Positions 4,084 through 56,562 of a stretch of 64,000 nucleotides of DNA are shown piece after piece (position 1 is the first letter of the stretch; each line of letters starts with the position of its first letter). Source of the stretch: Membranipora membranacea. Lineage: Eukaryota; Bryozoa; Gymnolaemata; Cheilostomatida; Membraniporidae. Location of the stretch: positions 17,734,001 through 17,798,000 of the forward strand of contig OU612068.1 in the NCBI GenBank assembly GCA_914767715.1, given 5' to 3'. Under the pieces are notes generated by a model. The model made no database searches, was not told the DNA's origin, and was given only the letters and a program-made list of their open reading frames with translations. A program made the position numbers and the translations under genes.

Positions 4084-7000
4084 GTTGGCTCAGTTGTTGA
4101 TGTATCAGGTTGTTGGTAACTGCTAGCTCCAGCCTCAGCATGTGGCTCATCAAATCTCTCACTGCCACCAGCTCCTGGCATCAACTCTTTGTGCCAGCGA
4201 GTCTCTTTGAACAAGAACCATATGCCAGCACCCCATACCAACATGTTCAAGTAGCCAAACAGCTGTATGTAGTAAAAAACAGAATTATTTATAACATAAG
4301 TTTTTGAATACTTCACAAGAGTCCTTATTAGTCATTCAGTTTAAATTTACCAAATTTCAATACCACAGCTCAAGTTCAAACCCCTGTCTGTTCCTCCTTG
4401 TTTTTCTTTTTCACTATATTGATGTCTGTATCACATGACCTCGACATTTGATATAGGTGTCAAAGTCATGTTGTCGCTGTTTGCAATGGCGTATCTCTAA
4501 ATTCTCTTGTTTTTCAATTTTAATGCTTACAGCTAGCCTGTCTTGACAAGTTTTTTTGTGGGGGAGGGGGAAGAAATCCACCAATCCCCACCGACCAAAG
4601 CTTGTCTACACAGTTAAGCCTACAGCCTGATTGCTGTAGAAAGGTTTGTAGATATCCCTTGCCACATCTGGTACTGGTACGGCTCAATTTATAAATTCAT
4701 TAAAATTGTGCATCATAGCACATAAGTGACATAACAGATGTTTTTCATTGAGACATTGTGAACGTCTTTCTGAATATACATCAGGGTCAGTCCTATTAGA
4801 AAAGTGGATATATTACCCCAGTAAATAAAATATTGTGAGTTCATAGGGCAAATAAAAATAACCAAAAAAATGAAAATTGTGGAAAATAGCAATTAGTTTA
4901 TTCCAATTATTTTAGCAAGGTCATAGTGGATCATAGTGGTCAGGGGAGGGGGGGGGGGGGCAATTAATCACTATGATCCACTATGATCCCAATTTTGAGA
5001 CTTTGCAGCAGTTTTACAGCAATTAAGTTCACAGGCTGTTTTTTTCATATGCTCCAATTACTTTCCAGTCTGAGATCTTTAAAACCATACCAAACATGGC
5101 CTAGGAGGACTGCATTAGAGGCTGCTGATAGTTTTACAGGCAGCAGATAAGCTATGACACAACAAGCAATACAATGCTCAACAAAACTGATCATTGGTTA
5201 GTTGCTAAATGATTTTGGCAGCTGCATCAATGTCACAGGTCTGTCAGATCACAATATAGCCTGGTGTAAAAAGGATGCTGTTATAACAAGTAGATTCAAT
5301 AGATGATTTTACCAGATCAGCTCCTAGTAATACAAAAAAAGTTAAAGTAGCGAAAGCGCTACTCTACCACACCATGTGGCAAGTTATCAAATAGGATAAA
5401 AATGCTAGACTGGTCCAAAGACCGACTTTCTAGCTGAAGTCAGGTATCGTTATTGTCTAAGTACTTACGACAGAGACAACTAAAGTAGCATGACTTCCAG
5501 CCTCTCCTGGATTACAGGCTGTTTCAGGAGCTGTACAGTAGTTTGTTCCCACCAAGTCATCATCTATGATCGCCTGAGGTTTGAGATATGTACCCATGAC
5601 ACTAAGACGGTCAGCCCAAGCTGTGCTGGCAATGAACCACATCAAAGTCCACACCACTGAGAATATAAAGTCCTACAAGTAAAATTGGTTGGTTATGACA
5701 ATATGTACGAGATAGTCATACCTTTTTCATTTCAGCTGAAGCGAAACAGTTTATGATCCTGAAAGACTCGTCACATTTGAATCAGTGAGAAGCTGCCATA
5801 CAGAGATTAACATACAAAGCATAAGATTGTAAGGATTTTAGTAAAAATAAACATCCACAAATCTACAAATAGTCCATCACAACCATAAACATATAAATAA
5901 GTATTTATAAGTTTATGATCACAACAATGGTTTGGTGCCCACAAGAATTGTTTTGTTTACGCTGTAGATGCTTGCATAGTTTTCAAGGATAGAACTCAAA
6001 TCTACCATTTGTCGCTTGAATGCAGCCAATCCCGTTATCAATCCTAAAAAAAGGTTGGCGTTTACAAACTTGAGAAATTTGAAGCATTGAAGCTTAACAA
6101 AGGGAAAATGGTCTTTAGACAGATAAACATGACATGTGCTTCCTGATGTATCAATCACATCCATATACACGAAGGACCAACAACCCAATGTTTTTGAATC
6201 CATAATTGCAGAACTGGCAATTTCAAATTTGATATGACCACATGCACCATACCAATATGAGTAAATTTACCATATCAAAAGTCAACCTAAACCCCAAAGT
6301 GTAATGTATCTTATAAATAATCCACTTACAATCATTGCTCCGCGGCTTTCATTGACAAATAGAGGGCTGAACACGATGTAGCCGATACAGTAGGCTATAC
6401 AGAGAAGGAAACTCATCACACCAATAAAACAGAAAAACTGCGGTGCCGATGCAAAGCTGACTTTTGCGAATGGAGTCAGTTTTGTCTGCTCCTTGCTGCA
6501 GAATGGAGCGTCAACCTCAATTCCATGCAAACTGAAAAAAGAATGATTAGATTTTTTTTACTCTATGTACATCGTGAAATACTGTGTCATAAGTAACTGT
6601 ATGACTATGAAAAAGATAAGATTTAGATTCTCAAGAATTTTATCATAATACCACCCTAGAAAAAAAAAGTATGACGGCCATCGAAATCATTGGGTTGATA
6701 CATAGGGCTGATGTAGATGGTAACAATAAGCAACACAAGTCAACACACTAACACCAACAATAATGGTGGACTCCTCTGCAGAATTCAATTATTCATCCCA
6801 TTTCCGTAATCCTCTAACAAACAGAGATTTTGGTTTCCACTCACAGTAATGAACTAGCCATTGAGATAACATCATAACCACAAAATCATAATAAACAGTT
6901 CCTGATAAGATCATGGGAGGACACTTATTGTGACTAGTCTAATCACGAGATGAGTTGAGTTCACAAGTATTTATGAGGAAGGTAGTTTCTATCACAGAGT

Positions 7001-8431
7001 AAGGATATATCCTTACTCTGTGTTTCTATCATAAAAATTTGTGTGCTGATTCTCATTTTTTAGATAGTAAGGCATGTAGGCTAACTTACTTGAAAGGGTA
7101 TTTATAGGTTATAGGCAAATCAGTAGTTGTAGAAGTTGCTGCAGTACCTGTTCCAGTCGTACATGTAATTTTTATATGTGCTGTTGCTGATGAACAAATA
7201 GTGGCAAATGCTAATATTGACAAAACCTGTAATCATAAATAATTTTTGACAAAGTTTTTGATTGAATATCTTACCAACAACAACGTCACAATTACGAACA
7301 TAACACCACCAATGGGTTTTGTTACAATCAGTCATGTTAAAAACAACTTTGAAGTTGGTTTGGAAAGATTTGATACTCTGGTAGTAGCATTGCATTATCA
7401 ACCACTTTCCAACTTTTTGAGAGGGGAAAGTGGTTTAAAGATAACGCAATGCTACTACCAGCCTTCCCGGTACAGTTCAGGTGATTTAACTAATACTCTG
7501 GCTATCCTCTTCATCTATAATCTATTTTCAGAGGTACCATTGTATTATGATGCATGCCTTAGGTCTGATGTGACCTAAGTTTTATCTTTTTTTTATTAGT
7601 AAAGCCTTTGACTGTGGGTAAAAACTAAACTTTTCTTTAAAGCAAATACTGTTTTCACTTGTTTCTTCCTCTTTCCACCCATATCCTTGGTACATTTGTG
7701 AAGAGATAATTCAAATATTATTCATACGGAGGAGCCATACCACCTTCTCAAACAAGACAGCAGTGTAGAGACCATAGCGTGTTATATACTTACAAATTGA
7801 ATCACTCGTAAAAAGCCTCGTGGCTCCTTAATAATGGCAAAGTCAACCTGTATGTTCTGAAAAAAATGTAAGTCCTGTTATTAGAAGCAGATATATATAT
7901 GCACCATCACAAGTGTAACTCATTCCAACTCTGATAAGTAAATGAAATACTGAAAAATCCCTTAAATAGTTGATTATGGCACTAACATCCCCAAGCTAGA
8001 TGCTTTTTTGCGATGACATTTGTGAGCTAGCCGAATGAATAATATGATTTCAATGACTGCTTGATAGAAAGCTGAGGGACTTTTGCTGTCTTCGTCAAGC
8101 TCCTTAGACGGCCCACTAAGAATAGAGTTACAATCCAGTGCAACCACTAGACTAGGGCATCTACCACTAGACTTGTTTGTGCAAGCCCTATTAATATTGG
8201 TATTGGACTGGATTTCTAGTTAACCAATGAACTCCCTTGAGTTCACATTGAGTTGACACACTTGTGACTTGACTTAGACAAAGTTGTAAGATAGTAAGCC
8301 TTATTGATGCTTACTAATGATAATTTTTACATTCAATGACTGGAAATGATCAAGTTGACTTGATGAAGGTTAGGATGAGGAAAGAGGTGTAGCAAAATTA
8401 ATAAACATATACATACCCTAACAACATCCAT
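4062..8431 (-). CDS. SYP-like: Synaptophysin/synaptoporin-family four-TM vesicle protein
   Basis: MARVEL-type tetraspan membrane protein of synaptic-like or transport vesicles (family knowledge). Six exons: 8417-8431, 7794-7856, 7090-7226, 6330-6531, 5469-5672 and 4062-4262. Phases are 0,0,2,0,0, giving 273 aa plus stop. It starts MDVVRNIQVDFAIIKEPRGF, closely like the vertebrate MDVV...KEPLGF start, which fixes the tiny 15-nt first exon. TM1 is QFVLSILAFATICSS, TM2 is about FFCFIGVMSFLLCIAYCIGY, TM3 is DFIFSVVWTLMWFIASTAWA and TM4 is LFGYLNMLVWGAGIWFLF. Luminal loop 1 contains a TCTTGTG stretch and DAPFC. Loop 2 has two cysteines (NYC and TAC). The cytosolic tail (about 40 aa) is Pro/Ser/Thr-rich and lacks the long Tyr-Gly repeats of vertebrate synaptophysin. 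Whether it is synaptophysin proper or a SYPL-type paralogue cannot be decided. Confidence 0.92.
4533..4612. repeat. Palindromic mini-element, family C
   Basis: The left end AGCCTGTCTTGACAAG and right end CAAAGCTTGTCTACACAG flank a G-rich then C-rich core. It lies in the last intron of the synaptophysin-like gene. It is the same family as 19713-19797. Confidence 0.65.
4914..4990. repeat. Inverted repeat with poly-G centre
   Basis: The left arm has two GATCATAGTG-like units and the right arm CACTATGATC twice, around a G run at about 4947-4960. Each arm is itself a tandem duplication of a 10-mer. It is intronic with no coding signal. Confidence 0.7.
6993..7022. mobile_element. 30-bp perfect palindrome with 7-bp target duplication (P1)
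   Basis: Perfect palindrome starting CACAGAGTAAGGA and ending TCCTTACTCTGTG. It is flanked immediately by TTTCTAT at 6986-6992 and TTTCTAT at 7023-7029. It lies in an intron of the synaptophysin-like gene. The palindrome plus identical flanking 7-mers is the signature of a tiny inserted element, a class that recurs across the window. Confidence 0.8.
7378..7471. repeat. Palindromic mini-element, family B
   Basis: The left arm CTGGTAGTAGCATTGCATTA and the right-arm end GCAATGCTACTACCAG form a hairpin around a short spacer. Related copies lie at 40382-40493, 43563-43686 and 44917-45018, with a partial one near 17350-17410. It is in intron 2 of the synaptophysin-like gene. Confidence 0.75.
8225..8250. 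mobile_element. 26-bp palindrome with 7-bp target duplication (P2)
   Basis: The element runs CAATGAACTC...GAGTTCACATTG, with arms mismatched by a 2-nt insertion. The flanks are AGTTAAC (8218-8224) and AGTTGAC (8251-8257), one mismatch. It lies in intron 1 of the synaptophysin-like gene. Its CAATGAACTC end matches element P11 at 56141-56184. Confidence 0.7.
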
Positions 8432-8952
8432 AATGATGTTTGACAATCTTCAATGGTATGGCAATATGCTGTCTCTTTTCATTCAAGTGTGTGCAGCTGC
8501 TATTTTCCTTACTGACTGGTAGCTTTACTATGACAGCTTGTCCAAACTTTCTTCCATGAGTCACAGCAGTGAGTTTATTGGTCACAGTCACTTGTCAGAA
8601 TTGTTTAGCAGTACAAAGTTTAACCTCAATGAAGGTAGTAAAAATATTTATTTAGGTGAGAAAATAGACTGGAGGATTGTGGCGGATCATGAAGAGATAT
8701 ACCCTTAAATCAAGATCAAACTTCTTTGGTTCTCAGGTGTAGAGATTAATTAAGTCTATGGGATTGGACAAAAGAATTCATTCCTTTGCATTCATTGGAT
8801 ATGAAATGTAGGTCAACAAATTGATAGTATTATGTTATAATTGCTGATCTTTGAATGATGTGCCAACTCTGCAGTCCCGCACAAAATACATTATACTTCC
8901 TTATTTGCGTCTTTTGGGATTTATAATAAACTTTTCGCCAACATACTCATCA
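8432..8952. other. 5' region of the synaptophysin-like gene, up to the tRNA
   Basis: No coding exon was found. It should contain the promoter and 5' UTR of the minus-strand synaptophysin-like gene (ATG at 8431). No specific core-promoter motif can be defended by eye. Confidence 0.4.
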
Positions 8953-9036
8953 GTCAGGATGGCCGAGCGGTCTAAGGCGCTGCGTTCAGGTCGCAGTCTA
9001 CTCTTGTAGGCGTGGGTTCGAATCCCACTTCTGACA
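8953..9036 (+). tRNA. trnL-CAG: tRNA-Leu (anticodon CAG)
   Basis: Class II tRNA of 84 nt. The acceptor stem GTCAGGA pairs with TTCTGAC (one G-U), with discriminator A at 9036. The A-box-like TGGCCGAGCGG gives the D arm. The anticodon arm is CTGCG-TTCAGGT-CGCAG with anticodon CAG. A long variable arm is closed by CTAC/GTAG. The T arm GTGGG-TTCGAAT-CCCAC contains the B box. No intron and no encoded CCA, as expected for a nuclear eukaryotic gene. A T5 run follows at once. Confidence 0.97.
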
Positions 9037-9040
9037 CATA

Positions 9041-10505: not shown

Positions 10506-11609
10506 AACACATTATTCCTTGATTCGAACAATCAGAAACCCCGCAGAGTAAGCAGATGCCCTGGTAATCCCTTTAACTCCTCTCTAATGCTAAAAATAAA
10601 ACCAAGTAGACTTTATCTCTTTCTGACTTCTACTACTCCTTGATAAAAGTATGCATGAATTCAACTGCGGACTTTTAATGTTATACCTGACTTATCTATG
10701 ATTTTCCCCATTTCTAATTATGTAGTGAGATATACAAGCATGATTTTCTTCTTTTTCTAAGCCGCTAAATAGCATCCGATAAATTGCGTATCATTCGAAA
10801 TAATCAGTTAGAAAACCAATAGCAAAACAATCTTACATCACTACTTCACCATGCCTATTCGGAGGAGGGGGAGGGGGGGGCCATACTAACAAAACATCGT
10901 CAGATACATACCAAATATTTTGCATGCTAGTTGAATAGCGTGTGCTTTGAGAGGTTGAGGTTGAGAGGTCTTCAAGGTGAAAAAGTTCTATAAAGCCAAA
11001 GAAGCCATAGACATAACTAGCCTGTGGGGAAATGCAGAAAGAATCACCTGTTCTCAAGCCTTTCATAATCTATACAAGAATCACAATCAGAATACATCTA
11101 AATAAACTAAACTTTAAACTCTATCTAAATAAACATTATGTGTAAAAACAATAATCAAACTGTTTCTCCTTTTTATTTGAGCTGACCAAGGTAAAAACAT
11201 TGATGAAAAATAATACATGTACCGTAATATGGAGAGAAGAACATTGGACGGAATTATCAACATGAGACAAAAAATATAGAGAAAAAAATCTCAGTTTCAT
11301 AATGCTATGAAGTAATAACGTGGTAACTATTATTATATCCAAGGAGTCCTTGTTATATCTGCCATTGAAATTGCAGGGATGTTACATAAACAATGGACAC
11401 AATGTTTATTGGGATGCTTCCAATATATGTTTTGAGATCTCAATTTACATTGACACAATGTTTAAACTGTATACTGCTAGTAATGCTCTGATTATCATTT
11501 TAGTGTCTATGATTGTTATTTGAAGTGTTGATTGTCATTGAGATACACAATCAGTCAGACGCCAGAGCCCATCTTTGTTAGAGTTATACCCTCCATGACA
11601 TGATGCACT
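10506..11609. other. Spacer between the retrotransposon and the IFT122 stop
   Basis: No supportable gene. The part next to 11,610 is the IFT122 3' UTR or downstream region on the minus strand, and TTTATT at about 11,404-11,409 gives AATAAA on that strand. A C/G run lies at about 10,863-10,880. Confidence 0.45.
11340..11352. mobile_element. 13-bp palindrome with perfect 7-bp target duplication (P3)
   Basis: CAAGGAGTCCTTG is flanked exactly by TTATATC at 11,333-11,339 and TTATATC at 11,353-11,359. This is the smallest member of the CA...TG palindrome class and carries only the terminal CAAGGAGT arms. Confidence 0.75.
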
Positions 11610-29946
<18,337 letters not shown>

Positions 29947-33900: not shown

Positions 33901-36900
33901 GTCGTGATCGGGTTATTTTCTAATGGTGAGCTGTGAGTCAAAGATGGGTGTGAGCTCGCCTAAGACAGAGAATCGGGATCCTGAGATGGGATTTAAAACT
34001 CTTGCTGCATATCTTGCCTGTAGGAAGATTATAGGCGATGATAAGCTGGATAAAAAAGCAGTGACAGCTCAGAAGGAAGAAGAGGATCGTATGAGAAGAC
34101 TTGCGGAGAGAGCCCAGGCTTCTCTATCCTCCGGTACCTCACATCTCAAATCTCTCTTAACAGGTATGATTGATTTAAAATATTTTGGTATGGTTATTGT
34201 AAATCCGGTGATTAGAGCTTGAGGAATGACTCTATACTTACTAGCAAACGTGCTGTTCCTTGGTGATTTTTCTTTTACTCAACCCTTAGGTTCTTGGTCT
34301 AATTTCACAAAATCTATTTTTCTTCTAAAATTTCTTCATTTTTCACACTCTCGCCTAGTGTGCCACCATGCCATTATGTTACTTTAATGGAAATATGTAT
34401 TGGTCTATTCGATGGTATGACCGAGTTTCTTATCAAGGATTTCATCTGATACTGTGGATGGCAGTGTGAGGAATTGGGTCACTCCATTGTACATTTTCCA
34501 AAGAATATCAGATTCTTCAGCTGATTTTTTTCCACAGCTAATTTGAAAAAAAAATTCATACACCTTCAAATTCATTGCATAGAAATTAAAAGAGGGCAAT
34601 GTCAATAAATTCTGATAACAGCAGTATATTAGTTTAAGCGTAGGCAGATCAAGGGCTAGATATTGTGATAATTCTACGTGCCAGTTGAAAAAAGTAAGCT
34701 GGCTTGCCAACTGCTACGCGGGGCGCTTCCCAGATAGTACACTGCAGCTCTCCTGACTGTTGCATCAGTGATACCAAGGAGTTAGAGACTCCTAACTCCT
34801 TGGTGATACTCAAAATCAAATCCACATATCAAGATACTCAATTACCAAGGGGTGGTGGAATTGGACAGAATATAGTCCAATATATCATGTCAATATTACA
34901 TACGCACTTGGTTTCAGGGAAATATCTTAATTTGGTATTCCTGAAATTGTTGGCCGAGATTAGTTGAAGAGCTTAAAAGTGGTGCTGGCCTTCCAGTGGG
35001 TTCTAAGTAAATATGTAAAATAGTAATCACAAATAGTGATGTCACCAGAAAACTATGCTCCTTGGGAATTCCATTGTGTGGATTTTTCCAAATATTAGTC
35101 ATAAGGAGTGGAAAAAGGTTTTGGTTCACAGCAGACTGACTTTTGTTTGGCGCTTCAGTTAATCTGCGTTGTTCGAGTGAAGCACTCCTAAAAAAGTTAA
35201 GCTCGCATTTTAACTTCACTCGCTGACTGATTTGGCAGACGACAGCGTCTTTGATACTTGGCTTATCCTCCTTCCTCTCTTCTGGGCTGCCATGTATGGA
35301 TTAGACAGCCTAACTTCATCAGAATGGGGATCTTGGTATCATCAGCAGTGGGAAGATCATGTTGAGTGTCCTCAGTTAACACTCTCCGACTCTCAATGGA
35401 ACCAAGTGTTTGAACAAGGTAGATTTGTTTGCTTCATGAGTACTTACAGAAATAGAAGCTTGAATCTTAATGTATTATCGTTGGCACTGACAAAGCTGAT
35501 TGATAGTGATGCTGTATTTTTTTGCACTCGTGAATCCTGGTTGTAACTACAATATTTGACAGTGTCGTTTTTATACTCTCTGTTTCGGTTGGAAAGGTGA
35601 TTAGATCAAGGGTGAATATGGAAGGCGGATATAAACAGGGCCAGGCTTGATTGAGTCTTGTCTGGTGGAGCGTTGAGTGTTTGGTTCTCATTGCACTGCG
35701 AATGAAATTCTAGATGGGATTCTTGATAGTTGTGCCGGATGTCGTACAGAGATTTTGTCAAATCTAGGTTAATTTCTAAATGTTTTGATAATAACCTGGC
35801 CCGACCTGATGGAGTGCCAGGCACCCCACACGCACACGGTATATTTACCAAGACTAAATAATGCGTTTATTCACATGTTAGTTCTGACTTATGGAGTCAT
35901 TGACCTTAGTATCACTAATCCTAAATAAAGTTTGAGATCAGCTCCCCTATCTGTGCTCTGAGCGATTAAGACTAACTCCACCCAAATTCTAATTAAAGTG
36001 CTCAAACTTGGCAGGGTTGGCTGGTAGTGGCTTGATCAAGTATGATCCAATTTGCCTCAGCTCACCAGTAGAACTACGAGAAAAACTGGAATGCGGACAA
36101 TTGGATCAAACTTAGTGGCATTCTACAATCAACCACTGCCAGTGTCCTGGACTTTTAAGCACTGTTCATGCCAGCAAATACCATGATGTGACATCGATAC
36201 CAGGGTTTCCTGATGTTCATCTCTGACGCCTGATACTTTTGTCCATGATGTGTAGTATTGATGACCTTTTTTGTTTCTTTGAATTCAGAGCCAGTGAGCA
36301 CCTCCGCACAGAAGCAGCATGACGTGGTAGAGTTATCTAGCTCTGATGATGACGACTGCTGTATCATAGACCCTGATGCTCCTCAGCCAGGTATGTATGG
36401 CACGGATTCTTCTTCACTCTGATGGCCCAGTCCTGTGTCTGTTAGACGGTAGATCAAGTTTAATCCAATGGCCTGCATTCCAGTTGCTCCCGATCCACTG
36501 GTCAATAGTGGATCGCGAGCAACTCAGAATGCAGGCAAAGGGACCTAAACTTTGTCTAGGTTGGCGGGAATAGATCTTGAGATGGAAATTTCTTTTTCCA
36601 TCTTTTTCAACCCAATCTTGTTTTGTCAATCACAAATCTCATAGCCCCAAATCAAGAAGGCTATCTTCGTGATATGAACATGATGATTGCGATGTAATTT
36701 GACTACGTGAAGGACGTGTATCACTGGTTTTATGACTCACTTGATTTTCCCTGCCAACCCAGGCAGTTCATTTGAGTGCATGAGCGGTTTGAATAACCGA
36801 CTTTGGGTTAAGTCAAAAGGTGTTTCATCAGGACTGCCACTCCGTAGGGAACTATTACGCTCATTGTAGTTTTTACACTTGTAAACTTAATAGGACAAGT

Positions 36901-39900: not shown

Positions 39901-42900
39901 TGCTACCACAGCTTCCTTTACTCTGCATACTTAGTGATTATGACTCAAAGTTATTCTCAATGGTAGATGACTCCTTTGTCAGCGAGCCCGCAAGGCTTGA
40001 GGAGGTTCTGATTTTCACAGGCATATTTAATATAGGTATATTAGTGTACGGCAGCCGAATTTGATATAAGATTCTACAAGGCGCTATTACAAGCTGTCTA
40101 ATGTTAAGTTCGTTATAGAATGGCAGCAATGTAATTAATTTGTAAAATAATAGCCCGCTGGACACTTCATATCATATGGCTCAAATTTGGTTCTTTGCTC
40201 TGTGAAATTTGATAGTTAATTTAGCAGGACACGGTCTTCGAAAGGAATACCAACTTATGTCCTTATTTCTTGGAAACTCTCTTATATCACTATGGACTAT
40301 ATCCCTATGGACTATATCCTTATGGACTATATCCCTATGGACTGGGCTATGATAAAAGAGTTGGTATCGCAGAGTAAGGACTTGTTTAAGCGTTCAAACG
40401 GTGGCAGGATGCTGGTAGAGGCATTTCATTATTCGGGAAAGTGGTTGATAATGAACTACCAGCTATTCCGTCATCGTTTAAGCGCTTAAATTAAGTAAGG
40501 ACATGTGGACTTACTCTCTGATGATATGAGGGTGTTCGGTCAGATTACTTTGATCTCACATGACTTGGCAATACTAGATGATTTTGAGGTGATAAACTGT
40601 TAAATAGCCAAGTGGATTATGACCCATTGCAATACTAGGTGATATTTTACTAAAATATTATATGTGTGCTACAACTCTGTGGTGTAATAGAGAAACACTG
40701 GCTAAAACTCAAGCTGAAATTTTAATGCCCCCATTATTGTTAATGAAGAGTTGCATCAGGGAGCAAATTATACAGATTTATTGTGTTACTGAAGCGTCAA
40801 GTTGCCAAAATCTAGAATGTCGGTCGGCATTTTGGGTAGTAGGCACCCTTTGTTGTGGTTAACGGAGTGGCAGAGACATTGACTCAATGCTACTCCTCTG
40901 TTTTTATAGGTCCTCCCCCGGGCAACTGCAAACTATTTAGAACAGAAACGGACGTAGCCGATTTTGATTTATTAAACAAGATGTTCGCCCTCAGAAAGTT
41001 ATTGAAATTAATTTCTCTTTTCTTTCTTACAGGGCATACCTGATGATGAAGTTAAACCTCGCAGCTTCAATCTATTCATTATAAACGATGTGCACAAAAC
41101 AGTCAATTCAAGAGCCTTGGTAAGTCAACACCAAACTACCGAACACCAACTGCCATGTTTATAACACGGTTGTAGTGCAGTTTTCAAACTTTTATTGTGT
41201 CATATTGTGTCATGTCTGGATTCCTAATGTGATGTAAAGGTGAAGAAATTGACTACACCATGGCTGAGTTATAAGACCTAGACATAGATTTTCATTACAA
41301 AATACTGACAAACTGTGAGCCCCCCCCCCTAGACTTTTGCCCCTCGTCCGACGGCCCCCCCGGGCGAGAGAAAGTCTGAGAACAATGCAGGATCTTGCTT
41401 GAGTTGTCTGCCCTTGAGTGTTATAAGTTAATCAAGGGGAGCACTAAAACTGCAATATCTATTTATTTCTATTCATGCCACCTACTATATTGCTCCAGGT
41501 ATGAGAGTTTTCCAGTCAGACTCTGGGAAAAGTAGCCTCATGTTTGGGAAATACCCATGAGCAGAGATATTCACTGCCAAATAGTGAAGAAAATGTCAGC
41601 CAGAATTTCTTTCATTTTGAATAAGGGTGGTCATTCATGACATTGACAAAAGGTCATATAATGTGTTATATTGGACACTAGGCTCTATGAAGTAAGATTA
41701 ATGTAGAAGTAATGAGAGAGGAAAAATCCACGCATATCCTGCAAAGTGCATAGACTACATGTTAATTGGAGTTGACATGGACTCATAGATTTAATTAATG
41801 ATGAAGTCTTTTTCCAATCTGAAGTTTTAGTTCCTGCTGATATGAGAGCAGATAGACCTATTTTACGACCCTATCCTGTTTGGGGATGAATCTATGCCTC
41901 ATGGACCGAATATAAAGATTATATTTGCTTTCTAAATATTTTATAGAAAGGCATGAATAATATGTGGATAAGTTATGTGTAAAAGTGGCTCGCCAATAAT
42001 CTCTCTTGATCAGAGCAAGGATGGGGAACTCAAAATCCAACTCCTTGATTAGAACAGGGAGGGCGGGATAAACCCCCCACCCTCCCTGATCAGAGACCGT
42101 AGATCTTCTGTCGCAGCTTGTTTTCAACAGCATGGATTTATTCAGAAATTAATTGTTTGCAAAAATACTGATTAAAAATTTATTGTGTCATATCGTTTAT
42201 CTTGTTGTTACATCGAATGAATGTTATATTTTAGGTCATAGAAAAGTGGACCAAAGGAGGAGGTGTTTTGTTGATGGGCTATGAAATGTTCAGGCTACTC
42301 GCAAATTGTAAAACTAAACAGAGGAAAAGAAAGGCCAACGCAGGGCCGGAACTCATCGATATTGATCTAGAAGAGAAAAAAACTGGCCTTCAGCTAGGTT
42401 AGTTGTGGGTTGTGGGTTGATCACACTTCCGGGGTGTCATGATATATTGGCCTTGGTAAATTCTACTGCACCATGACTAGTGGCAAACGTCAGTGCACTC
42501 TGACACAGGTTATTTTTGGTGGCTATAATCAATGATCAGATAGATATCTGCAGTAATAACCACAGATATATCGAGAATTCGGTTGCTTACACACTTTGAT
42601 CTCTACTATTGTGCTATGGATGAGATTTGCTTATGCTGAAAATTGAGAATGCTTCAAACATGTATCGCAGCAATGAAGCTTCTGGTGCTCCTGTTGGCAA
42701 AATTATGACAAAAGCTTTTTTCCGGTTCTCCTACTTTTTGCTCCTCATATAAAATCAAACTTATAGACAACCCTCACCAAATATATCCTAATTTTTCAAA
42801 CAAGGGTTGTAGGATAAGCTCCGGTTCAGAATTTGGAGGTCCGGTTTAGGATTTGAAGGTCCGTTAAATCTTGAAAATCAGTCATTTTGTAATGTTACCG

Positions 42901-45900: not shown

Positions 45901-48900
45901 TGGATGATATATTGTTGTAGCTTACTCTTAGTTCAGAGAATGCTTATAATAAAATATCCTTAGATAATTGGTATAATCCCAAAGCTACTCAAGTATTTCG
46001 GAAATTAATCCATCATATTTGCTGTAGTAAGCCGATCTGAAATCACAATTTGATTTTCTTATTTCATTATTGCTGACACTCAACTAAAATGTGACAGATC
46101 ACCCCCCTGGTTTTTTACAACTGAATTTTTCTCTCATATCATTTAGTGCCAATTCCTGATACTGTTCATTGTTTTGGAGGGGAGGTTTGTTTGTCCAAAG
46201 AGTTAACTCCTTAGTTTGTCCGAAGAGTAAGCTTCGGACCAAACTTAGCTTGACTGTTGTTGGCTGCGCACATAAGATCCGACATGTGCCTCATATATCT
46301 GGCCTGGTCAATAATCATCTCCATGCCAGAAACCTATGCTACAGGAAAAAATGGCAGGTGAAAGCCAAGAGCAGACAAGCTTTGTTTCTTAAAAGCACAT
46401 GGAGAAGCTGACAATGTGGATGAACCAGTCCTGCCTCCCATACGCTTTGACATCACTGCAATACAGCTACTTCTACTGCTATATATTATTGCACACTGAT
46501 CTTTCTTGTTTCAGACGTAACCACCAAGTCCTTATGAAGAACTTACCTCCCAAAGAAGAGTGGGTGTTGATGATAAAGATGTCAGATTCCCAGAGGAAGA
46601 TGTACAACATGTTCATGGATAACCTGCAGCTCGACTCTGACTCGTGTATAGGAGGCACAAACCCTCTCAAAGCTTTTGCGGTAGCCTGTAAGGTCAGTAA
46701 TATTCATGCATCAGTCTCCCTGAATACATGAAAATTGGTTAGATTGAATTGATGTCCAGTTCCGTGATTTGTGAGAGACTCAGCGCTGATAGACTGATGA
46801 TTGTGTTGATTGATTTGATGTCCAGTGTTATGTTCTGAGAGAATTTCTGTGCTGGCAGCCTTGACTAATATGCAAGCTGTAATCGTGTGTAGAATTTTAT
46901 GGAGGTATCAATTTCTCGTCACCTGTGACCTTTGATGCAGACATTTATTCCTATTAATAATAATAATGAAGATCGTGATTGTCTTCCGTGTCACTGGCCC
47001 ATGTTGTAGTGTTGGTTCCAAATAGTGGTATTAAATCATATGGCACCTTAAAAAGATACATGAACCTAAAAACCATGGAGATCACCAACTAAATGTTATT
47101 CTTCTTGGACTCATTGACTCAATTTCTCTACACCAATTTTTACTAGATTTAAAAAGAAAATTTAATGCCATAAATCTATGCGATATGAGGGCATTATTTA
47201 CTTGGAGCTTTTCTGAGAAGAAAGCTATGAATCTCAAATGTATAATTAAAATACTACTTTACTTAATGTATATATTTCATGCTGTAGTATAAATGGCCTA
47301 ACCGTACGATGACTTTGAGGTTAGGTGAGAATATTCAGAGAATACAATCTTTATCTATTCCAATATACCTCTTTATAGATGTTTAATGTGTTATACTTAA
47401 CTGAGACAGGGTTGATTAACAGAAAAGCATTTATGTCAAGAGACATGTTCTAGGTAAAAATATCAGCACACACTTGTTAGATTTCTCCATCAATTGGGAC
47501 CATTGTCATACAAGCCAAGTGGTTCAAGTTCAGATACACAGTATATATAAGAAAGGTGCGTTGATGTCATGTATATTTTATTTTCTATTTCAGATTTGGA
47601 ATCATCCGGACGTGATGCAAAAGTTCTTAGACAAAACTGCTGATGTTGATTTGGAGTTTGACTTAGCTTCAGGGTCTCTGACGGGAAATACGCCAACAGG
47701 TCGGGGCGGTGCTAAACGAATAAAGAAATCAGCCAGTGAAAGTGTGCTATCAAGAGGTGGAGACCCCAGAGATAGTCCGCTCTCTGCTATCTTATCAGAG
47801 AAAACAGCTGAAATCAGCTATGACTGGGTAAGATCCAGCTCTCTGAATGTTGGAAATAAACATTTAAAACTCGGGTGAAACTCTCAAGTGATATGGAACA
47901 GCCTAGACCAAGTTTGGTCCATTTGCCTGCATTCGGAGTTGCTCTCGACAAACTGGTGACGTGACCAGTGGAAGGGAGCAACTGGAATGCAGGCAATTAG
48001 ATTAAACTTGATCTAGGAGCAGCCTAAGACTTGACTTTAACTATTTGGAGATGAATAAGGAGGAATACTTTTAATAGTTCTAGGCTGGTTATGCATAGCG
48101 TAAAACCAGACTCAACCAACTTTCTGAGCGCTCCAACAGATTTTGTCATGCCTTATGTTGGGCTGGTGATCCAAACCCTCCAAAATTCTAGTTTTATAAC
48201 ATTATATAACATATCTAATATTATTTTACATAATATAAGTGGTCGTTCTCCCACCAACTGATGAATTTGCATAAATTTTACATAATTGATCTTTCAATAC
48301 AGTCACCACTAATATAACTACATTTGATCACATATCAATTGTTCCTCTTTTTAGGTTAGGCCAGAGTTCGATCACTACTTACAAGGAGTCATAGAAAACA
48401 GTGGAAAGTTTGCCATCCTTTTCCAAGTTATAGCTGAGACTCTGGCACTGGATGAGAAAATATTGGTGTTCAGTCAAAGTCTGATGACTCTAAACCTACT
48501 GGAGGATTACCTGTCAAAAATGTTTGTGCCTCTGCCTTGGCTCAATGAGAAGTGGGCTCGCAACCAAACCTACTATAGTAAGATTTCTTTTGTTTAATCA
48601 CAATCGTATGCCAGGGTTTTGATGGGAATATTTCCAACTAATTCTGACTAAATTCACATAAAACAGTTCTTTTTAAAAAAATGCTCCTGCATCATTATTC
48701 CTGTAGCATCCACCAATAGCACTTACAAATTTACGATTTACGAATTCATTTATTAACCCAATGTTGCGAATGCATTGTGCTCTATATAAACCAGCTTCAA
48801 ACACAAAAGTCTGGCTGACAAAACTTAAATCACAAGAGGTTACCAGAGCCTTGCAGCTTCAATATTTCTATAGCATTTGAAGTCGTCTTTCAGAATTTAT

Positions 48901-53138: not shown

Positions 53139-53169
<31 letters not shown>

Positions 53170-54870
53170 CACATAATTATTCTGGAATAAGAATCAAGTG
53201 CAGGGCACTTGTAACCAGAAAAAAAAACAAGGATTAAAATGACACAAATCACTAGGATAATGAAGAAAAAAATCTCTTGTTGATAAATTGTAGAGGGCCA
53301 CAGCTACCTGGTATGCCCGGTAGACCACAGATGCCCAGACCGAGTATGTCTACGCCACAGATGAGACAGCAGGCTCCTCCCTTCAGATATCCAGGGGGAA
53401 TGAGCGGTCAGACTGAGATTAGACCTGGTGTCACTCTGCAGGTAATATATTGGATTACGTGTCTATCAATCTGGGGTTGGTCAGAGGGATAGTAAAAAAT
53501 GTCCTGGCTAAACTCCAACTTAATTTTGATATGAAGCTTTGTTCCATTCAGCGCTGACTGAAACCTGACTGAGGGATCTCTGTAACACCAAGTAAAACCT
53601 CTTGTAGCAATAATAACTCTGATTGGGAAAAGGTATCAAATTCTCTCAGATTTTAGTCAAGGTTTGGTGTCATTTGTCTAAAATGGTTACGATAGTTGTT
53701 ATCTCACTATCACCTCATTAATGTCCTTACAGATGATAAGAGCTAAGAAAGACATCACTGCACCAGGTCCTGAGGGTAAAGTTATAAAACAGGGAGAAGT
53801 CGTTACTGTGATAAGAACACCAAAAGGCACTTACATCAAGCTATCCGATGGTAAAATATTCGCTGTGAGAAATAAAAGTGAAGCTGAGAGCTTTGGTGAG
53901 TTTGTTGCTTCTACTGCTGAAAAAACTACAATTTTTGCTCCTGTATGAGTTTACTTATAAGTTGTTTTGGAGGATGCGTTGTAAATGACTTGTCATGCGG
54001 AATTAATAAAATGCTGTAGCTATATAGAGGTTGAAAGACTCCGGTTAGTTTTAACTATGAATCCACTTCCTTATTATAATTTTTAAACATACTTTTGTAG
54101 GTCTTGATACTAATGATCAGAGCGTTTCTTCCCCGATGAGTGGTCAAAATGCTGGCTCACAGCCTGGCTCCCCAGCCATGAACAGTGGTAACTCACTGTC
54201 ACAGTCCCCACACAACACTCAACTATCCGATCTACTTACTAAAGGACTCATGCCCCGTAATATAGCACCAAACATGGTGGAGAGAAGGAAGCCACCACCT
54301 TCCTCAGCTCCCGGTGCGACCGGCGATGGGGGCCTACAAGATGTTAGTGGTAATCATAGCAGTACACCACCTTCAATTGACCACCTTCTAGGACTGATGC
54401 CGCAAGGCTATGATGATAATTCAATGCCTAGAGTACCTGGTCCAGGTTTTGACAGTACGCTGTTTCAGCAACAGTCATCCTCACCGCTCAGCAATATGGC
54501 AATGCCGTCTGTGGGTCATAGTGGTAGCGATCCTAGTATGCTTTATCAACAAGCTGGCTACGGGTCACATTATCCTCCTAATCCGTTCATGGCAGCTGCC
54601 ACTAACGGCTTCGGCAGCTCGTCTTTCTCAGGCCTTAATGGACAAACTAGTCAGTCTAATGATTTCACCTCCGCAGGCGGTGAACCTACTAATCTACCAA
54701 GCCTGAATCATCTGCTGAGAATGAGAACACCACTTGTACTGCCTCCCCTCGATGGTCCGGAGCCAATCAGTCGGGATGGATCAGACACGGGTAGTCTACC
54801 TTCCCTTACTAACAGTCCACACAAGCCCATGTTTAGTCTAGGGGCTGCAGAAAGCTCGGGCAATGGCTGA
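30977..54870 (+). CDS. RAD54L2: RAD54L2/ARIP4, SWI2/SNF2-family ATPase
   Basis: Nuclear DNA-dependent ATPase of the RAD54/ATRX group; in vertebrates it binds androgen receptor and SUMO pathway factors (family knowledge). There are 23 coding exons: 30977-31193, 32030-32119, 32512-32713, 34024-34163, 36289-36390, 37913-38076, 38680-38796, 39589-39720, 41033-41119, 42235-42397, 43787-43901, 45066-45293, 46515-46692, 47594-47827, 48355-48577, 49060-49159, 49697-49902, 50102-50172, 50562-50663, 52503-52684, 53294-53441, 53733-53895 and 54101-54870. These give 4,134 nt, 1,377 aa. The N-terminus is acidic (nine Asp in a row at 41-49), then Lys-rich. Motif I is MGLGKT (K341), motif II is DEGH (488-491), then [29 protein letters not shown] and motif [13 protein letters not shown] (859-869). 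The C-terminal [18 protein letters not shown] block is typical of ARIP4. The Ser/Pro/Gly-rich tail is encoded by one long exon. An optional in-phase exon may exist at 35239-35418. Confidence 0.96.
32226..32276. repeat. C-rich dispersed repeat, copy 1
   Basis: TGAGCC followed by a C run, then CAGACTTTTGCCCCTCG and CCGACGG and a second C run. The same unit recurs at 41,316-41,366. Both copies are in RAD54L2 introns. Confidence 0.7.
34775..34802. mobile_element. 28-bp palindrome with perfect 7-bp target duplication (P6)
   Basis: The arms CAAGGAGTTAG and CTAACTCCTTG are perfect. The flanks GTGATAC (34,768-34,774) and GTGATAC (34,803-34,809) are identical. It is in RAD54L2 intron 4. Confidence 0.8.
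35239..35418 (+). other. Candidate cassette exon of RAD54L2 (60 codons, phase 1-1)
   Basis: It follows an AG acceptor (TTTGGCAG) and is followed by GTAGAT. It is 180 nt and open in the phase required by its neighbours (exons at 34024-34163 and 36289-36390), so it could be included or skipped without a shift. It would encode a Trp-rich, hydrophobic stretch ([29 protein letters not shown]) unlike the acidic linker of vertebrate ARIP4. The donor is weak. It could be a chance ORF or part of an old repeat. Confidence 0.3.
36031..36115. repeat. Palindromic mini-element, family A
   Basis: The left end TTGATCAAGTATGATCCAAT and right end ATTGGATCAAACTTAG are complementary. The internal stem has decayed. 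It is in RAD54L2 intron 4. Confidence 0.6.
36449..36559. repeat. Palindromic mini-element, family A
   Basis: The ends TAGATCAAGTTTAATCCAAT and CCTAAACTTTGTCTAG enclose a stem of CCTGCATTC...GAATGCAGG and GATCCACTGG-type sequence. It is just downstream of the RAD54L2 exon at 36289-36390. Confidence 0.75.
38766..39124. repeat. 193-bp tandem duplication that includes the end of the Walker A exon
   Basis: Unit 1 is 38,766-38,958 and unit 2 is 38,959-about 39,124. Unit 1 begins in the RAD54L2 exon at 38680-38796 and carries its last 31 bases. Unit 2 repeats ATGGGACTGGGTAAAACTTA, reading MGLGKT then a stop, with an AG/GTAATG donor-like site. It is a non-functional partial exon copy that has no acceptor of its own. 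Confidence 0.8.
40290..40346. repeat. 15-bp tandem repeat
   Basis: About four units of ATGGACTATATCCYT. Intronic in RAD54L2. Confidence 0.85.
40382..40493. mobile_element. Palindromic element family B with 9-bp target duplication
   Basis: The left end TTGTTTAAGCGTTCAAACGG and right end CGTTTAAGCGCTTAAATTA are inverted, and the inner arms contain GGTAGAGGCATTTCATTAT. AGTAAGGAC flanks both sides (40,373-40,381 and 40,494-40,502). It is in a RAD54L2 intron. Confidence 0.75.
41316..41366. repeat. C-rich dispersed repeat, copy 2
   Basis: Same unit as 32,226-32,276 (CTAGACTTTTGCCCCTCG, CCGACGGCCCCCC), same orientation, in another RAD54L2 intron. Confidence 0.7.
42016..42088. mobile_element. Two back-to-back short palindromes sharing three 7-bp repeats (P7, P8)
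   Basis: The order is ATCAGAG (42,009-42,015), element P7 at 42,016-42,047 (CAAGGA...AACTCCTTG, arms imperfect), ATTAGAA (42,048-42,054), element P8 at 42,055-42,088 (CAGGGAGGGCGGG...CCACCCTCCCTG), ATCAGAG (42,089-42,095). The three 7-mers are alike, so a second element appears to have entered at a copy of the first target duplication. It is in RAD54L2 intron 9. Confidence 0.75.
43563..43686. repeat. Palindromic mini-element, family B
   Basis: GCTTAAACTGTGTCGGGATA opens and TATCCCGACGCAGTTTAAG closes a near-perfect stem that also contains GCTGGTAGTAGCATTTCATT and its complement. It is in a RAD54L2 intron. Confidence 0.8.
44917..45018. mobile_element. Palindromic element family B with direct flanks
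   Basis: The arms CTAGTTTAAGCGCT and AGCGCTAAAACTAG are outermost, and GCTGCTAGTAGCATTTCATT pairs at the centre. TTTGCATGAGAA lies directly outside both ends, a 12-bp direct repeat. It is in the RAD54L2 intron before the exon at 45066. Confidence 0.75.
45465..45600. repeat. Palindromic mini-element, family A
   Basis: The ends CTAGAACAAGTTGGATCCAT and TGGACCAAACTTGGTCTCG are complementary, with stems TTGCCTGCA/TGCAGGCAA and CCACTGGT/ACCAGTGG. It is in a RAD54L2 intron. Confidence 0.75.
45677..45902. mobile_element. 226-bp element with terminal inverted repeats (family L)
   Basis: The left end CAGGGGGGTCTTTCAATTAG is mirrored by the right end CTAATTGAAAGACCCCCCTG. The interior has GCGATCTGA-type inverted blocks and no ORF. 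The flanks AATTATA and GATGATA match at 5 of 7. A solo right-type end occurs near 13,527-13,552. It is in a RAD54L2 intron. Confidence 0.7.
46196..46213. mobile_element. 18-bp palindrome with perfect 7-bp target duplication (P9)
   Basis: CAAAGAGTTAACTCCTTA is a palindrome apart from mutated outer bases. The flanks GTTTGTC (46,189-46,195) and GTTTGTC (46,214-46,220) are identical. A second hairpin, TCCGAAG...CTTCGGA, follows at once. Confidence 0.72.
47903..48016. mobile_element. Palindromic element family A with 7-bp flank
   Basis: The ends CTAGACCAAGTTTGGTCCAT and ATTAAACTTGATCTAG, with inner stem TTGCCTGCATTC. The flanks are GAACAGC (47,896-47,902) and GAGCAGC (48,017-48,023), one mismatch. 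It is in a RAD54L2 intron. Confidence 0.75.
51588..51655. repeat. Half of a family A element
   Basis: CTAGAACAAGTTTGATCCAA, GCCTGCAT and GATCCACTGGTCACG give the left arm only. The right arm is replaced by the TACTA array. Confidence 0.65.
51686..51796. repeat. (TACTA)n microsatellite
   Basis: About 22 perfect 5-bp units at the centre of the large inverted repeat. Confidence 0.97.
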
Positions 54871-55350
54871 GGTATGACGGTAATATTATTTATCATCTAA
54901 ATAGGTCAATATTTCTATTTTAATCTTATTATCAGACTTCATACTGTTATGGAATACTTGTACCATAAGAGTCATTTATGTGTACTTGCATAGGTTTGTA
55001 CCAATTTTTTATCGTATATCATTCTGTGAATGCTTGTAATGAACAATCATAGTAAAAATTTCTCAGTTAATGCTTTTCTTGTGATGCGATTCGCTATAAA
55101 CAAGGCATTAGATAATCTTATGTCTCTGCTATAACTACAGATGACCTTGAGCTTTGATAATTCTGCTGTGCATTAAACGTAAAGGCAAACCCCGATTTTT
55201 TCTACTTCACTTTTTATGACATTTCCAATAAGTCCGTTCAAGTTGTTTAATTTCAATTAAATGTGACAAAATTATTTTATAGCTTATTTCATTTGCAAGG
55301 TTAATCAGAATCAAGGTGTTCCGATATGTTTTTATTAATTATGTGAAAGT

Positions 55351-55360
55351 AATAAATAAA
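55351..55360 (+). promoter_or_regulatory. Likely RAD54L2 polyadenylation signal
   Basis: AATAAATAAA, two overlapping AATAAA, 480 bp after the stop. The same signal is in copy 2 at 62,148-62,157. No closer AATAAA stands out. Confidence 0.5.
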
Positions 55361-55483
55361 ATCAGACATCTGTGATATTCAGACCATCCTAATAAGCATT
55401 GCTTGCACATGGAAGGAAAATATTTTCAAATATTGAAAAGAACACAGCATATCCTCAACGGTATAACAATTAGTCTAAGTGCT

Positions 55484-55563
55484 CAGACTGCTCCAATGCG
55501 AGTCAGTTCCACTCATTGGTAATGTAATACCACTAACTCGCATTGGAGCTGTCTGAGCTCTTA
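55484..55563. repeat. Palindromic mini-element after RAD54L2
   Basis: GTCTAAGTGCTCAGACTGCT and the closing AGCTGTCTGAGCTCTTAGAC are inverted, with an inner CCAATGCGAGT/ACTCGCATTGG stem. It is present in both duplication copies (62,273-62,362). Confidence 0.75.
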
Positions 55564-55611
55564 GACTGTGTGACAATAGAAGGCAAACCTAGCCACCGGT
55601 GCACTCTCCCG

Positions 55612-56562
55612 TCAAGCGGTAGTTTGATATGACATGACAAGGTTTGGGGTCAAAGCTCTTTGCCACAATACATGCTCAGACATCAACCAGATTTCATTAT
55701 CCAGGATTCTAGAGGTCAATCTCCCACATTCTCAATTAAATCTAAGGATTATCTAAACTGGCAACCAAGTTTTTATGAATCATTACATTTGCAATGCATG
55801 AAGTGAAAACAAAGATCAAGCATCTCCCTTATTCTTAATTAATCTTCATTTGAATACAAGCAGGGAGTTTGGGATATGTTTAAACCGATCTTCTTGTTAT
55901 GACCGAACTCCCTGATACAAACTTCCCATTATTTTGCAGCTACTTTCTCTTCAAATAAGACAGGACAACTCTCATGTCAAGGGTTTAGAAAATGATAAAG
56001 TCGCTCTGTAAGCTAATATTTATGTCAACATCATTTGCTGGTTAATGCTAGGGAAGATGAGCAAGGTAGGAAAGTATTGGTGTAAAATTTAAAAAAGTGT
56101 TATAATCTAGAGGAGTTATTCAATTTAATTATGATATGAGCAATGAACTCCCTCCCTCCCTCCCTAGGAAGAGGGAGTTCATTGATATGCGGATCTCTAT
56201 CAAGGTAGTGGTGACTTTAATGATACGTAGATCTTAAATCTGCGCCCCCCCCCCCTGACTGCAGTTATGTTGGATTAACTAATGTGCTGCCCCCTGTCCG
56301 GAAATAGACATCTTCTGGTCGACACACCGAATTCCTTCTTATGGTATTCAAGCTACATGAATTATTCCATGCCCAATCGACCAGAGATATACTTGCAATA
56401 GTATTTCATGTGATCAGTGAGGAGTCAGCCTTGTAAACATACAAACATTTATTTGTAAGCATAGGACTTGTAGATACCTTGTGCCCTTATCCTCATTTCT
56501 TCCTCTACCAAAGAAGCATTCATCAATATCTGATCATCAGGGCTGTATGGGGACGGGTTGCT
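55612..56562 (-). CDS. Gene X, last two exons (copy 1), unrecognised
   Basis: Two minus-strand exons that join in phase. 56478-56562 (85 nt, donor GTATCT) encodes SPDDQILMNASLVEEEMR. 55612-55730 (119 nt) encodes LDNEIWLMSEHVLWQRAL and ends with a stop at 55612-55614. Phase 1 at the donor fits an acceptor after TTGAG. Both exons are conserved in copy 2, where changes are conservative (I to V, I to M, T to A) or silent. I do not recognise the family; the first exon looks Glu-rich and helical. Earlier exons would lie to the right and are not found between 56,563 and 57,942, so this copy is probably an orphan 3' end. Confidence 0.5.
55861..55914. mobile_element. 54-bp inverted-repeat element with 7-bp flank (P10)
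   Basis: The ends CAGGGAGTTTGGG and CCGAACTCCCTG surround a 29-nt loop. The flanks are ATACAAG (55,854-55,860) and ATACAAA (55,915-55,921). It is also in copy 2 at 62,658-62,711, so it predates the duplication. Confidence 0.78.
56141..56184. mobile_element. 44-bp palindrome with 7-bp flank and preserved empty site (P11)
   Basis: The ends CAATGAACTCCCTC and GAGGGAGTTCATTG. The flanks are ATATGAG (56,134-56,140) and ATATGCG (56,185-56,191). In copy 2 the element is absent and a single ATATGAG remains at 62,931-62,937, exactly as expected for an unoccupied target. Confidence 0.88.

Follow-up and report, generated by a model that had tools for sequence, protein, structure and literature searches.

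Short palindromes dispersed in the genome of Membranipora membranacea are very probably the excision scars of kilobase-scale, P-superfamily-like cut-and-paste transposons. The observations behind this reading are an excess of two-ended inserts over their control, target duplications around them, a steep limit on insert size, fillers that resemble the transposon ends, and scars of the 8-bp class that bear the end of a P element with 8-bp duplications of its own. Under the proposed model, a P-superfamily-like transposon would insert with duplication of 7 bp of target sequence, or 8 bp for the CATAG families, and would later be excised by its transposase, which would make staggered cuts some 17 nt in from either end. 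The chromosome would keep about 17 nt of outer terminal-repeat sequence on each side as 3' tails, and end joining would seal the break through short matches between the tails or through filler copied from them. The expected product is a target copy, a stub, an overlap or short filler, the opposed stub and a second target copy, and the insert would look palindromic because two opposed transposon stubs had been joined. The 17-nt cut, the repair enzyme and the idea that microhomology makes certain products recur are presumed elements of this model.

Palindromic inserts in the window

All 11 palindromes listed in the original prediction were found in the window, the whole 64,000-nucleotide stretch of DNA analysed here (Table 1). 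Perfect 7-bp flanks had been attributed to six repeats; this holds for the five that stand alone (6993, 11340, 25636, 34775 and 46196), whereas ATCAGAG matches perfectly only between the two outer copies that enclose the inserts at 42016 and 42055; the middle copy, ATTAGAA, differs from it at two positions. This tandem pair is interpreted as one insertion followed by another into its repeat. The other flanks differ by one base (8225, 24189, 55861 and 56141) or, at the middle copy, by two, in agreement with the earlier description. The TG end ascribed to nearly all palindromes is missing at 46196, which ends in TTA. Two inserts, at 62658-62711 and 5884-5917, were absent from the earlier list. 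The insert at 55861 comprises a left 17 nt (CAGGGAGTTTGGGATAT), a 25-nt filler and a right 12 nt, and the stub at 56141 seems to extend up to 19-25 nt unless it is partly filler. Real insertion with an empty site, as had been claimed, was confirmed for one insert by a paralogous copy in the window that lacks the 44 bp and one repeat copy of 56134-56191.

Table 1. Candidate scars and related sites in the window (flank, insert, flank)
Feature	Position	Strand	Composition
8-bp-class candidate scar	5876..5925		ATCACAAC, 34-bp insert 5884-5917 with CATAAAC ends, ATCACAAC; perfect repeat; length fits 17+17
Candidate scar	6986..7029		TTTCTAT, 30-bp insert 6993-7022 with CACAGAGTAAGGATATA ends, TTTCTAT; fits 17+17 nt with TATA overlap
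Candidate scar	8218..8257		AGTTAAC, 26-bp insert 8225-8250 with CAATGAACTCCC end, AGTTGAC
Candidate scar	11333..11359		TTATATC, 13-bp insert CAAGGAGTCCTTG 11340-11352, TTATATC
Candidate scar	24182..24232		GTAGAAC, 37-bp insert 24189-24225, GTAAAAC; fits 17 + TAG + 17
Candidate scar	25629..25672		CAAGGAC, 30-bp insert 25636-25665, CAAGGAC; fits 17+17 nt with ATAT overlap
Candidate scar	34768..34809		GTGATAC, 28-bp insert 34775-34802, GTGATAC
Candidate tandem scar pair, common target	42009..42095		ATCAGAG, insert 42016-42047, ATTAGAA, 34-bp insert 42055-42088, ATCAGAG
Candidate scar	46189..46220		GTTTGTC, 18-bp insert CAAAGAGTTAACTCCTTA 46196-46213, GTTTGTC
Candidate scar	55854..55921		ATACAAG, 54-bp insert 55861-55914, ATACAAA; also in tandem duplicate
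Candidate scar	56134..56191		ATATGAG, 44-bp insert 56141-56184, ATATGCG; missing in tandem duplicate
Duplicate of 55861 candidate scar	62651..62718		Insert 62658-62711, in tandem duplicate
Empty site	62931..62937	+	Single ATATGAG in tandem duplicate; 56141 candidate scar missing there

Insert families and their target duplications

The grouping of the inserts into families with common ends, as originally proposed, is borne out by three two-ended patterns that recur genome-wide, with the reversed pattern of each serving as its control. Short inserts of the form CAAGGAGTT..AACTCCTTG (CAAGG set) occupy 1103 genome loci vs 1 in the control, those of the form CAGGGAGTT..AACTCCCTG (CAGGG set) 620 vs 1, and those of the form CATAGAGTT..AACTCTATG (CATAGAG set) 219 vs 0. 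Together, these exact patterns amount to 1942 loci, with flanks read at 52, and judging from sequence the genome would thus keep about two thousand candidate scars. In addition, the 13-mer CAAGGAGTCCTTG occurs at 181 places, and its reversed control at 6. Other ends were also noted, CATAGACCT as a second P family and CAATGAACT as a further family.

The 7-bp repeats, which had been taken for target-site duplications, behave as such at the flanks read genome-wide. With up to 2 mismatches allowed, they surround 21 of the 28 inserts checked among the 181 places of the 13-mer (13 perfect), 12 of 13 CAAGG inserts chosen from 50 listed (9 perfect) and 17 of 19 CAGGG inserts (10 perfect), so that both duplications are kept at 50 of the 60 loci pooled from these 7-bp families. 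In the CATAGAG set, 19 of 20 checked had an 8-bp repeat mismatched at no more than 1 position (15 perfect), and a 7-bp fit was found in none of these 20, the best having 3 mismatches. Inserts lacking a matching flank numbered 7/28 for the 13-mer, 1/13 for CAAGG, 2/19 for CAGGG and 1/20 for CATAGAG; the sole CATAGAG locus of this kind, L098, may be a longer templated repeat. A 107-bp locus, L051, was rejected, as it is an inverted duplication with flanks that are inverted too. Duplication length was constant within the 7-bp families at the flanks read, and their target follows the pattern RTNNNAY: among 100 flank copies, counted on both strands, 85% have T at position 2 and 85% have A at position 6.

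Parent elements and alternative origins

The genome holds 134 matches to the RNase H domain of P transposase, and 0 of 14 control genomes has any. One locus, L071, is a 5972-bp P element with the end CATAGAGTTATCCCCCT, an 8-bp repeat (AGGAAAAC) and a PF21787 match; as expected of a parent of the CATAGAG/ATCC family, it combines a P transposase with the same ends and the same duplication length. Its 25-nt end is present in 30 copies forming 11 convergent pairs of 2.4-7.3 kb, among which only the L071 pair was read, and 8-bp duplications flank both P elements read. The ATCC sequence of L071 is carried by 8 of the 50 listed CATAGAG inserts, 7 of these with 8-bp repeats, and their longest matches to the L071 end cover 17, 18 and 18 of 25 nt. 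The other 42 match the sequenced element only over the first ~9-13 nt, and many of them fall into a CATAGAGTTATTATATA subfamily for which no parent was seen. In the first 67.6 Mb listed, comprising C1 and the part of C2 up to 26.55 Mb, exact-string counts give 2 full-length end pairs and 8 CATAGAG scars of the ATCC type, 5 of which have CCCC.

For the 7-bp families, the longer elements with the same termini and a transposase that the original prediction proposed to seek did not appear, and no intact parent for any of them was found among the places listed. The first 100 places listed for the 17-mer CAAGGAGTTARAGACAA (242 matches) contained no convergent kilobase-scale pair; those for the 17-mer CAGGGAGTTTGGGAYAT (232 matches) contained two, neither with a matching flank repeat or a long reading frame. 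Candidates rejected as parents comprise L116 and L117 (no matching flank repeats, no reading frame above 129 aa); L049, a 754-aa P-type open reading frame that has CAAGGAG motifs in its vicinity but for which no duplication-flanked ends were found; L072/L115, with a common match of only 58 bp; and L073, with no convincing ends. L114 is a near-identical copy of L049, similar over at least 6.8 kb with no element boundary at the right, and at the left end of L116 the sequence ATTTTAG-CAGGGAGTTTGGGATATG-ATTTTAG looks like a one-sided scar. An array on C3 near 22 Mb was also rejected as a 7-bp parent: although it has CAAGGAGTTAAAGACAA at a distance of ~8 kb from two transposase matches, the transposase matches in the array lie ~3 kb from CATAGAGTTATCCCCCT ends and were therefore assigned to the 8-bp family. 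Because parents were not found, we can only infer that the 7-bp families descend from P-superfamily elements.

It is accordingly conceivable, although unlikely, that the CARGGAG scars go back to a transposon of another superfamily that likewise made long staggered cuts inside its ends and a 7-bp duplication. No P transposase is tied to CARGGAG ends at the loci examined, the 7-bp duplication is unlike the 8-bp one around both P elements read, and RTNNNAY also resembles a target pattern of hAT. However, hAT elements make 8-bp duplications and their excision takes away the element's ends, and the CARGGAG families had 7-bp duplications and retained ends at the flanks read. Against any origin outside the P superfamily, the scar anatomy of these families is the same as that of the 8-bp class, PMC7776569 presents long 17-nt cuts as a distinguishing trait of P elements, and Galileo, a member of the P superfamily, is reported to have 7-bp duplications in most copies, with the target consensus GTATTAC (PMC4168063).

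Many inserts could instead be internally deleted copies left by interrupted gap repair rather than by direct joining of tails, which appears quite doubtful. A minority have long fillers or stubs seemingly above 17 nt, such as those in 8 of the 50 listed CATAGAG inserts (18-19 nt) and at L009:849 (about 18-19 nt), and products in wild-type flies are reported as mostly incomplete repair synthesis followed by end joining (PMC2895639). In contrast, inserts thin out above 48 bp, with 53 CAAGG loci at gaps of 31-61 vs 1103 at gaps of 0-30, and nucleotides 19-25 of the L071 end occur in none of the 50 listed CATAGAG inserts, only 3 of which reach nucleotide 17. For the CAAGG and CAGGG inserts, the measured stub lengths are capped at 17, since the reference ends had been taken from the scars and were only 17 nt long. 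Putative microhomology at the junctions of these two sets takes the form of overlaps of 1-4 nt, many of them of 1 nt only, as are those of the 13-, 26- and 27-mers.

The 7-bp families may survive only as scars. That they represent a P-like lineage left (almost) only in this form and purged by excision in trans, possibly by a P-type transposase kept by the host, is an improbable extension; if true, excision would serve as transposon removal. A long open reading frame at C11:7308354 and C3:34638914, in near-identical copies with no recognisable transposon ends, could be a candidate for the purging transposase.

The palindromes of 13-54 bp had themselves been proposed as mobile, moved by a transposase that needs little beyond two end motifs, and this now seems very improbable. 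Target duplications and the clean empty site would be expected of such ultra-short elements, and identical inserts do recur with differing duplications (the 13-mer at 181 places, an 18-mer at 6 and a 26-mer at 11 of 50 listed loci). However, distinct sequences make up 34 of 50 listed CAAGG, 38 of 50 CAGGG and 44 of 50 CATAGAG inserts; inserts of all three families differ at the centre, a few forms recur, and a conserved interior beyond the ends, as in MITEs, was not found among those listed. The 22 fillers of at least 5 nt resemble the ends, with a summed match of 110 vs a mean of 84.6 in 20,000 shuffles, although singly only 3 of the 22 beat their own shuffles at P<0.05, and iterated end fragments are present in the longer-gap inserts. 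In addition, PMC7776569 places the binding sites of P transposase internal to the terminal repeats, and such short DNA should therefore lack them. Since interiors vary, fillers are end-like and 8-bp inserts of like build carry the end of a multi-kilobase P element together with its duplication length, a full-size transposon that came and later left is the better reading.

Chance was assessed in 264 kb, comprising the window and 20 systematic 10-kb stretches, on CA..TG inverted repeats with arms of at least 5. Exact 7-bp flank repeats surrounded 11 of these vs 0.25 per shuffled set, and with up to one mismatch 21 vs 3.25 (maximum 7 among 20 sets); the 7-mer flanks thus far exceed the shuffled rate, one of the comparisons by which the original prediction could have been refuted. 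Exact counts at other lengths (shuffled in brackets) were 7 (2.1) for 5 bp, 0 (0.65) for 6 bp, 1 (0) for 8 bp and 0 (0) for 9 bp, and one-mismatch flanks lay nearer the shuffles (5 bp, 31 v 25.75; 6 bp, 15 v 8.6; 8 bp, 2 v 1.0; 9 bp, 2 v 0.45). Outside the window, cases were sparser, with 7 exact ones in 200 kb, confined to 4 of the 20 stretches and 4 of the 7 in L009. Although AT-rich runs yield some spurious matches, chance palindromes or simple repeats are refuted as an explanation by shuffled and reversed-pattern controls near zero.

Comparison with known systems

MITEs have a common interior and are moved as units. Like them, the inserts described here are short, with inverted ends, target duplications and many copies; unlike them, their junctions are mostly specific to the locus, and they become scarce near a length of twice 17 nt plus filler. 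The junction anatomy appears the same as that of Drosophila P footprints, in which excision by 17-nt staggered cuts is reported to leave end-joining products with intact target duplications around two remnants of the terminal repeats, neither above 17 nt; these are joined blunt, by short microhomology or by filler that is often templated from nearby sequence (PMC2895639). That work concerns a single element with an 8-bp duplication, excised in the laboratory and recovered from repair-mutant flies, whereas here 1942 natural loci match the three patterns, and for the two families with 7-bp duplications no parent was found. The fly junction table also includes joins losing most of both ends, with 14 isolates of one class (PMC2895639), and such joins would be missed by the two-ended patterns used here. 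The Galileo consensus GTATTAC agrees with the RTNNNAY of the 7-bp families; however, Galileo is known from element copies with long terminal repeats (PMC4168063), whereas the 7-bp families are without a linked transposase.

No genome-wide survey of P-type scars was found in the literature searched, a weak negative given its partial coverage. A scar archive of this kind would alter the annotation of short palindromes and 'tiny MITEs', make lost DNA transposons countable after their disappearance, allow the number of excised copies to be measured against that of retained ones, and provide a natural record of end-joining junctions across evolutionary time. P-element footprints were already known from laboratory flies; here, some two thousand candidates appear dispersed as palindromes in one genome.

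Short palindromic inserts of the window

The short palindromes of the window are very probably excision scars (target copy, stub, overlap or filler, stub, target copy) and not ultra-short transposons. The original observation, a minimum of eleven inserts that are 13-54 bp long, for the most part CA...TG, and enclosed by 7-bp direct repeats, holds: all eleven were found in the window. Five of the six repeats described as perfect are so on their own, and the sixth, ATCAGAG, is perfect only around two adjacent inserts, whose common middle copy is ATTAGAA. An excess over shuffled sequence was also observed: in 264 kb (the window and 20 systematic 10-kb stretches from contigs C1-C4), exact 7-bp flanks surrounded 11 inverted repeats starting CA, vs. 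0.25 per shuffled set. Exact repeats of 6, 8, and 9 bp occurred 0, 1, and 0 times in the same sequence, and those of 5 bp seven times (2.1 when shuffled). Exact 7-bp cases were less frequent beyond the window (7 in 200 kb, four of them from a single stretch).

The empty site cited as a sign of real insertion was confirmed, as a paralogue in the window carries a single ATATGAG vs. ATATGAG, 44 bp, and ATATGCG in the other copy. Both shared and empty scar sites are supplied by a tandem duplication, and the neighbouring scar common to both copies therefore predates it. The MITE-like element of the window is apparently an ordinary MITE, of a different family.

Inserts and other features of the window and genome (L, fetched locus; C, contig; G000, whole genome)
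Feature	Position	Description
CATA-ended 8-bp scar	window 5884-5917	34 bp
Inserts	window 6993 and 25636	30 bp; fit 17+17 with overlap TATA and ATAT
Insert	window 24189	37 bp; fits 17+3+17
Reverse-transcriptase fragment	window 9879-10433, minus strand	PF00078
MITE-like element	window 43933-44241	309 bp; 15-bp inverted ends CAGTGCTGTCCCCAG; perfect 7-bp duplication CATTAGC
Tandem duplication	window ~52455-57000 and ~58197-64000	~6-7 kb; reading frames matching
Scar in both duplicate copies	window 55861 / 62658	
Iterated end fragments	L052, L053, C6:3286861, C6:293969	
Scars adjoining or within other scars	L049:7266-7313, L007:1501-1551, G000:C1:24037743, C4:18946065	
Short element	L001:1552-1654	103 bp; 8-bp duplication GAGTCAAT; identical ends CATAGGCATCTGGAGTTACAAGCAT
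Repeated CAAGGAGTTAAAGACAA (plus strand)	G000:C3:21.75-22.5 Mb	P-transposase matches; CATAGAGTTATCCCCCT ends
Related loci L049 and L114	C11:7304500-7312500 and C3:34635500-34642500	99.4% identity across 6388 bp

Recurrence and anatomy of the 7-bp families

The genome containing the window (339 Mb, 18 contigs) holds 181 occurrences of the 13-mer CAAGGAGTCCTTG, vs. 6 of the reversed pattern. The pattern CAAGGAGTTN..AACTCCTTG was detected at 1103 loci with gaps of 0-30 (control, 1), dropping steeply to 53 at gaps of 31-61, and CAGGGAGTTN..AACTCCCTG at 620 loci with gaps of 0-30 (control, 1). Flank repeats were read for a subset of loci only. Among 28 of the 181 13-mers, 7-bp repeats were perfect in 13, with one mismatch in 6, two in 2, and worse in 7; 13 CAAGG-set loci, hand-picked from 50 listed, gave 9 perfect repeats, two with one mismatch, and one each with two and three. 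For the CAGGG set, 20 loci were fetched from 50 listed and one, its left flank missing, was left out; the remaining 19 showed 10 perfect 7-bp repeats, 5 with one mismatch, 2 with two, and 2 worse, and in none did 5-, 6-, 8-, or 9-bp repeats fit with at most one mismatch. The target that is duplicated reads RTNNNAY, with T2 and A6 each at 85% (100 flank copies, both strands).

Identical short inserts recur at many loci, which, read alone, would also fit mobile mini-elements. For the palindromes, excision scars of P-like elements are a better reading than a class of minute insertions that an unusual transposase mobilises.

The first 50 listed loci per set were split into left stub, right stub, and overlap or filler against 17-nt reference ends (CAAGGAGTTARAGACAA; CAGGGAGTTTGGGAYAT and variants); because these ends were derived from scars, the split alone cannot show that stubs stop at 17 nt. 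Among recurrent products, the two stubs overlap by TTAA in the 18-mer CAAGGAGTTAACTCCTTG and by CAA at the tail tip in the 24-mers CAAGGAGTTARAGACAACTCCTTG; together with the 30-bp inserts of the window, these would fit the pairing of two identical tails. The recurrent 13-mer, 26-mer (11 of 50 listed), and 27-mers overlap by 1 nt only. Pooled fillers of at least 5 nt (n = 22) resembled the ends more than expected by chance: their longest matches add up to 110, a total reached in 0 of 20,000 shuffles (mean, 84.6), and only 3 of the 22 did so singly at P < 0.05. The scars adjoining or lying within others suggest re-insertion at earlier target sites.

P elements and the inserts with 8-bp repeats

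P-superfamily ends have the form CANRG. The P-transposase RNase H domain PF21787 has 134 matches in this genome and none in 14 control genomes. Two P elements were read with both ends: L050 (4933 bp; 8-bp repeat TGCTGATC; ends CATAGACCTACTAAT), whose reading frame contains THAP, helix-turn-helix, RNase H, and GTP-binding domains, and L071 (5972 bp; 8-bp repeat AGGAAAAC; ends CATAGAGTTATCCCCCTAGAGCTAT), a putative P element by its PF21787 match. The 103-bp element is possibly a short non-autonomous P element.

P-type excision as the source of scars predicts that members of the L071 family leave behind CATAGAGTT..AACTCTATG inserts flanked by 8-bp repeats. Inserts of this pattern were found at 219 loci in the genome (control, 0). 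In 20 CATAGAG inserts checked, 8-bp repeats were perfect in 15 and had one mismatch in 4, and a 7-bp repeat fitted none (best, 3 mismatches). Of 50 listed inserts, only 8 (L094-L101) include the ATCC stretch from the end of L071; all 8 are among the 20 checked, and 7 of them have the 8-bp repeat. Three of the 50 reach nt 17 of the L071 end, matching 17, 18, and 18 nt, where nt 18 could equally be the other stub's base; nt 19-25 are absent from all 50. The full 25-nt end occurs at 30 places, with 11 convergent pairs of 2.4-7.3 kb. In the remaining 42 inserts, likeness to L071 is limited to the first nucleotides, and many belong to the CATAGAGTTATTATATA subfamily, whose parent was not seen and of which 18-19 nt are matched in 8 of the 50; the cut position may differ between families, or the end may be mimicked by filler.

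Parents of the 7-bp families and published counterparts

With exact ends and places listed on C1-C3 and part of C4, no intact parent of the 7-bp families was found, and given that scope such parents may still exist. The CAAGG-family 17-mer (242 matches, control 0) formed no kb-scale convergent pair among the first 100 listed; the CAGGG-family end (232 matches, control 0) formed two among its first 100 listed, neither of which has flank repeats that match or a reading frame longer than 129 aa. If parents do not exist, the lineage would be known from scars alone. A reading frame for a P-type transposase is present in both L049 (754 aa) and L114, and a 134-bp indel with CCAGTGGT on its flanks distinguishes the two loci; transposon ends were looked for in both and none were found.

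The 7-bp class of scars likely derives from the P superfamily. In Galileo, a member of this superfamily, most copies are described with 7-bp duplications (consensus GTATTAC; PMC4168063), and a transposase cut site 17 bp inside the inverted repeats is described as setting P elements apart (PMC7776569). Junctions tabulated after P-element excision in Drosophila repair-mutant flies have a copy of the 8-bp target on either side, at most 17 nt from each of the two element ends inside these copies, and microhomology or filler at the centre (PMC2895639). The iterated end fragments observed here resemble the templated insertions that the same source ties to polymerase theta in flies.
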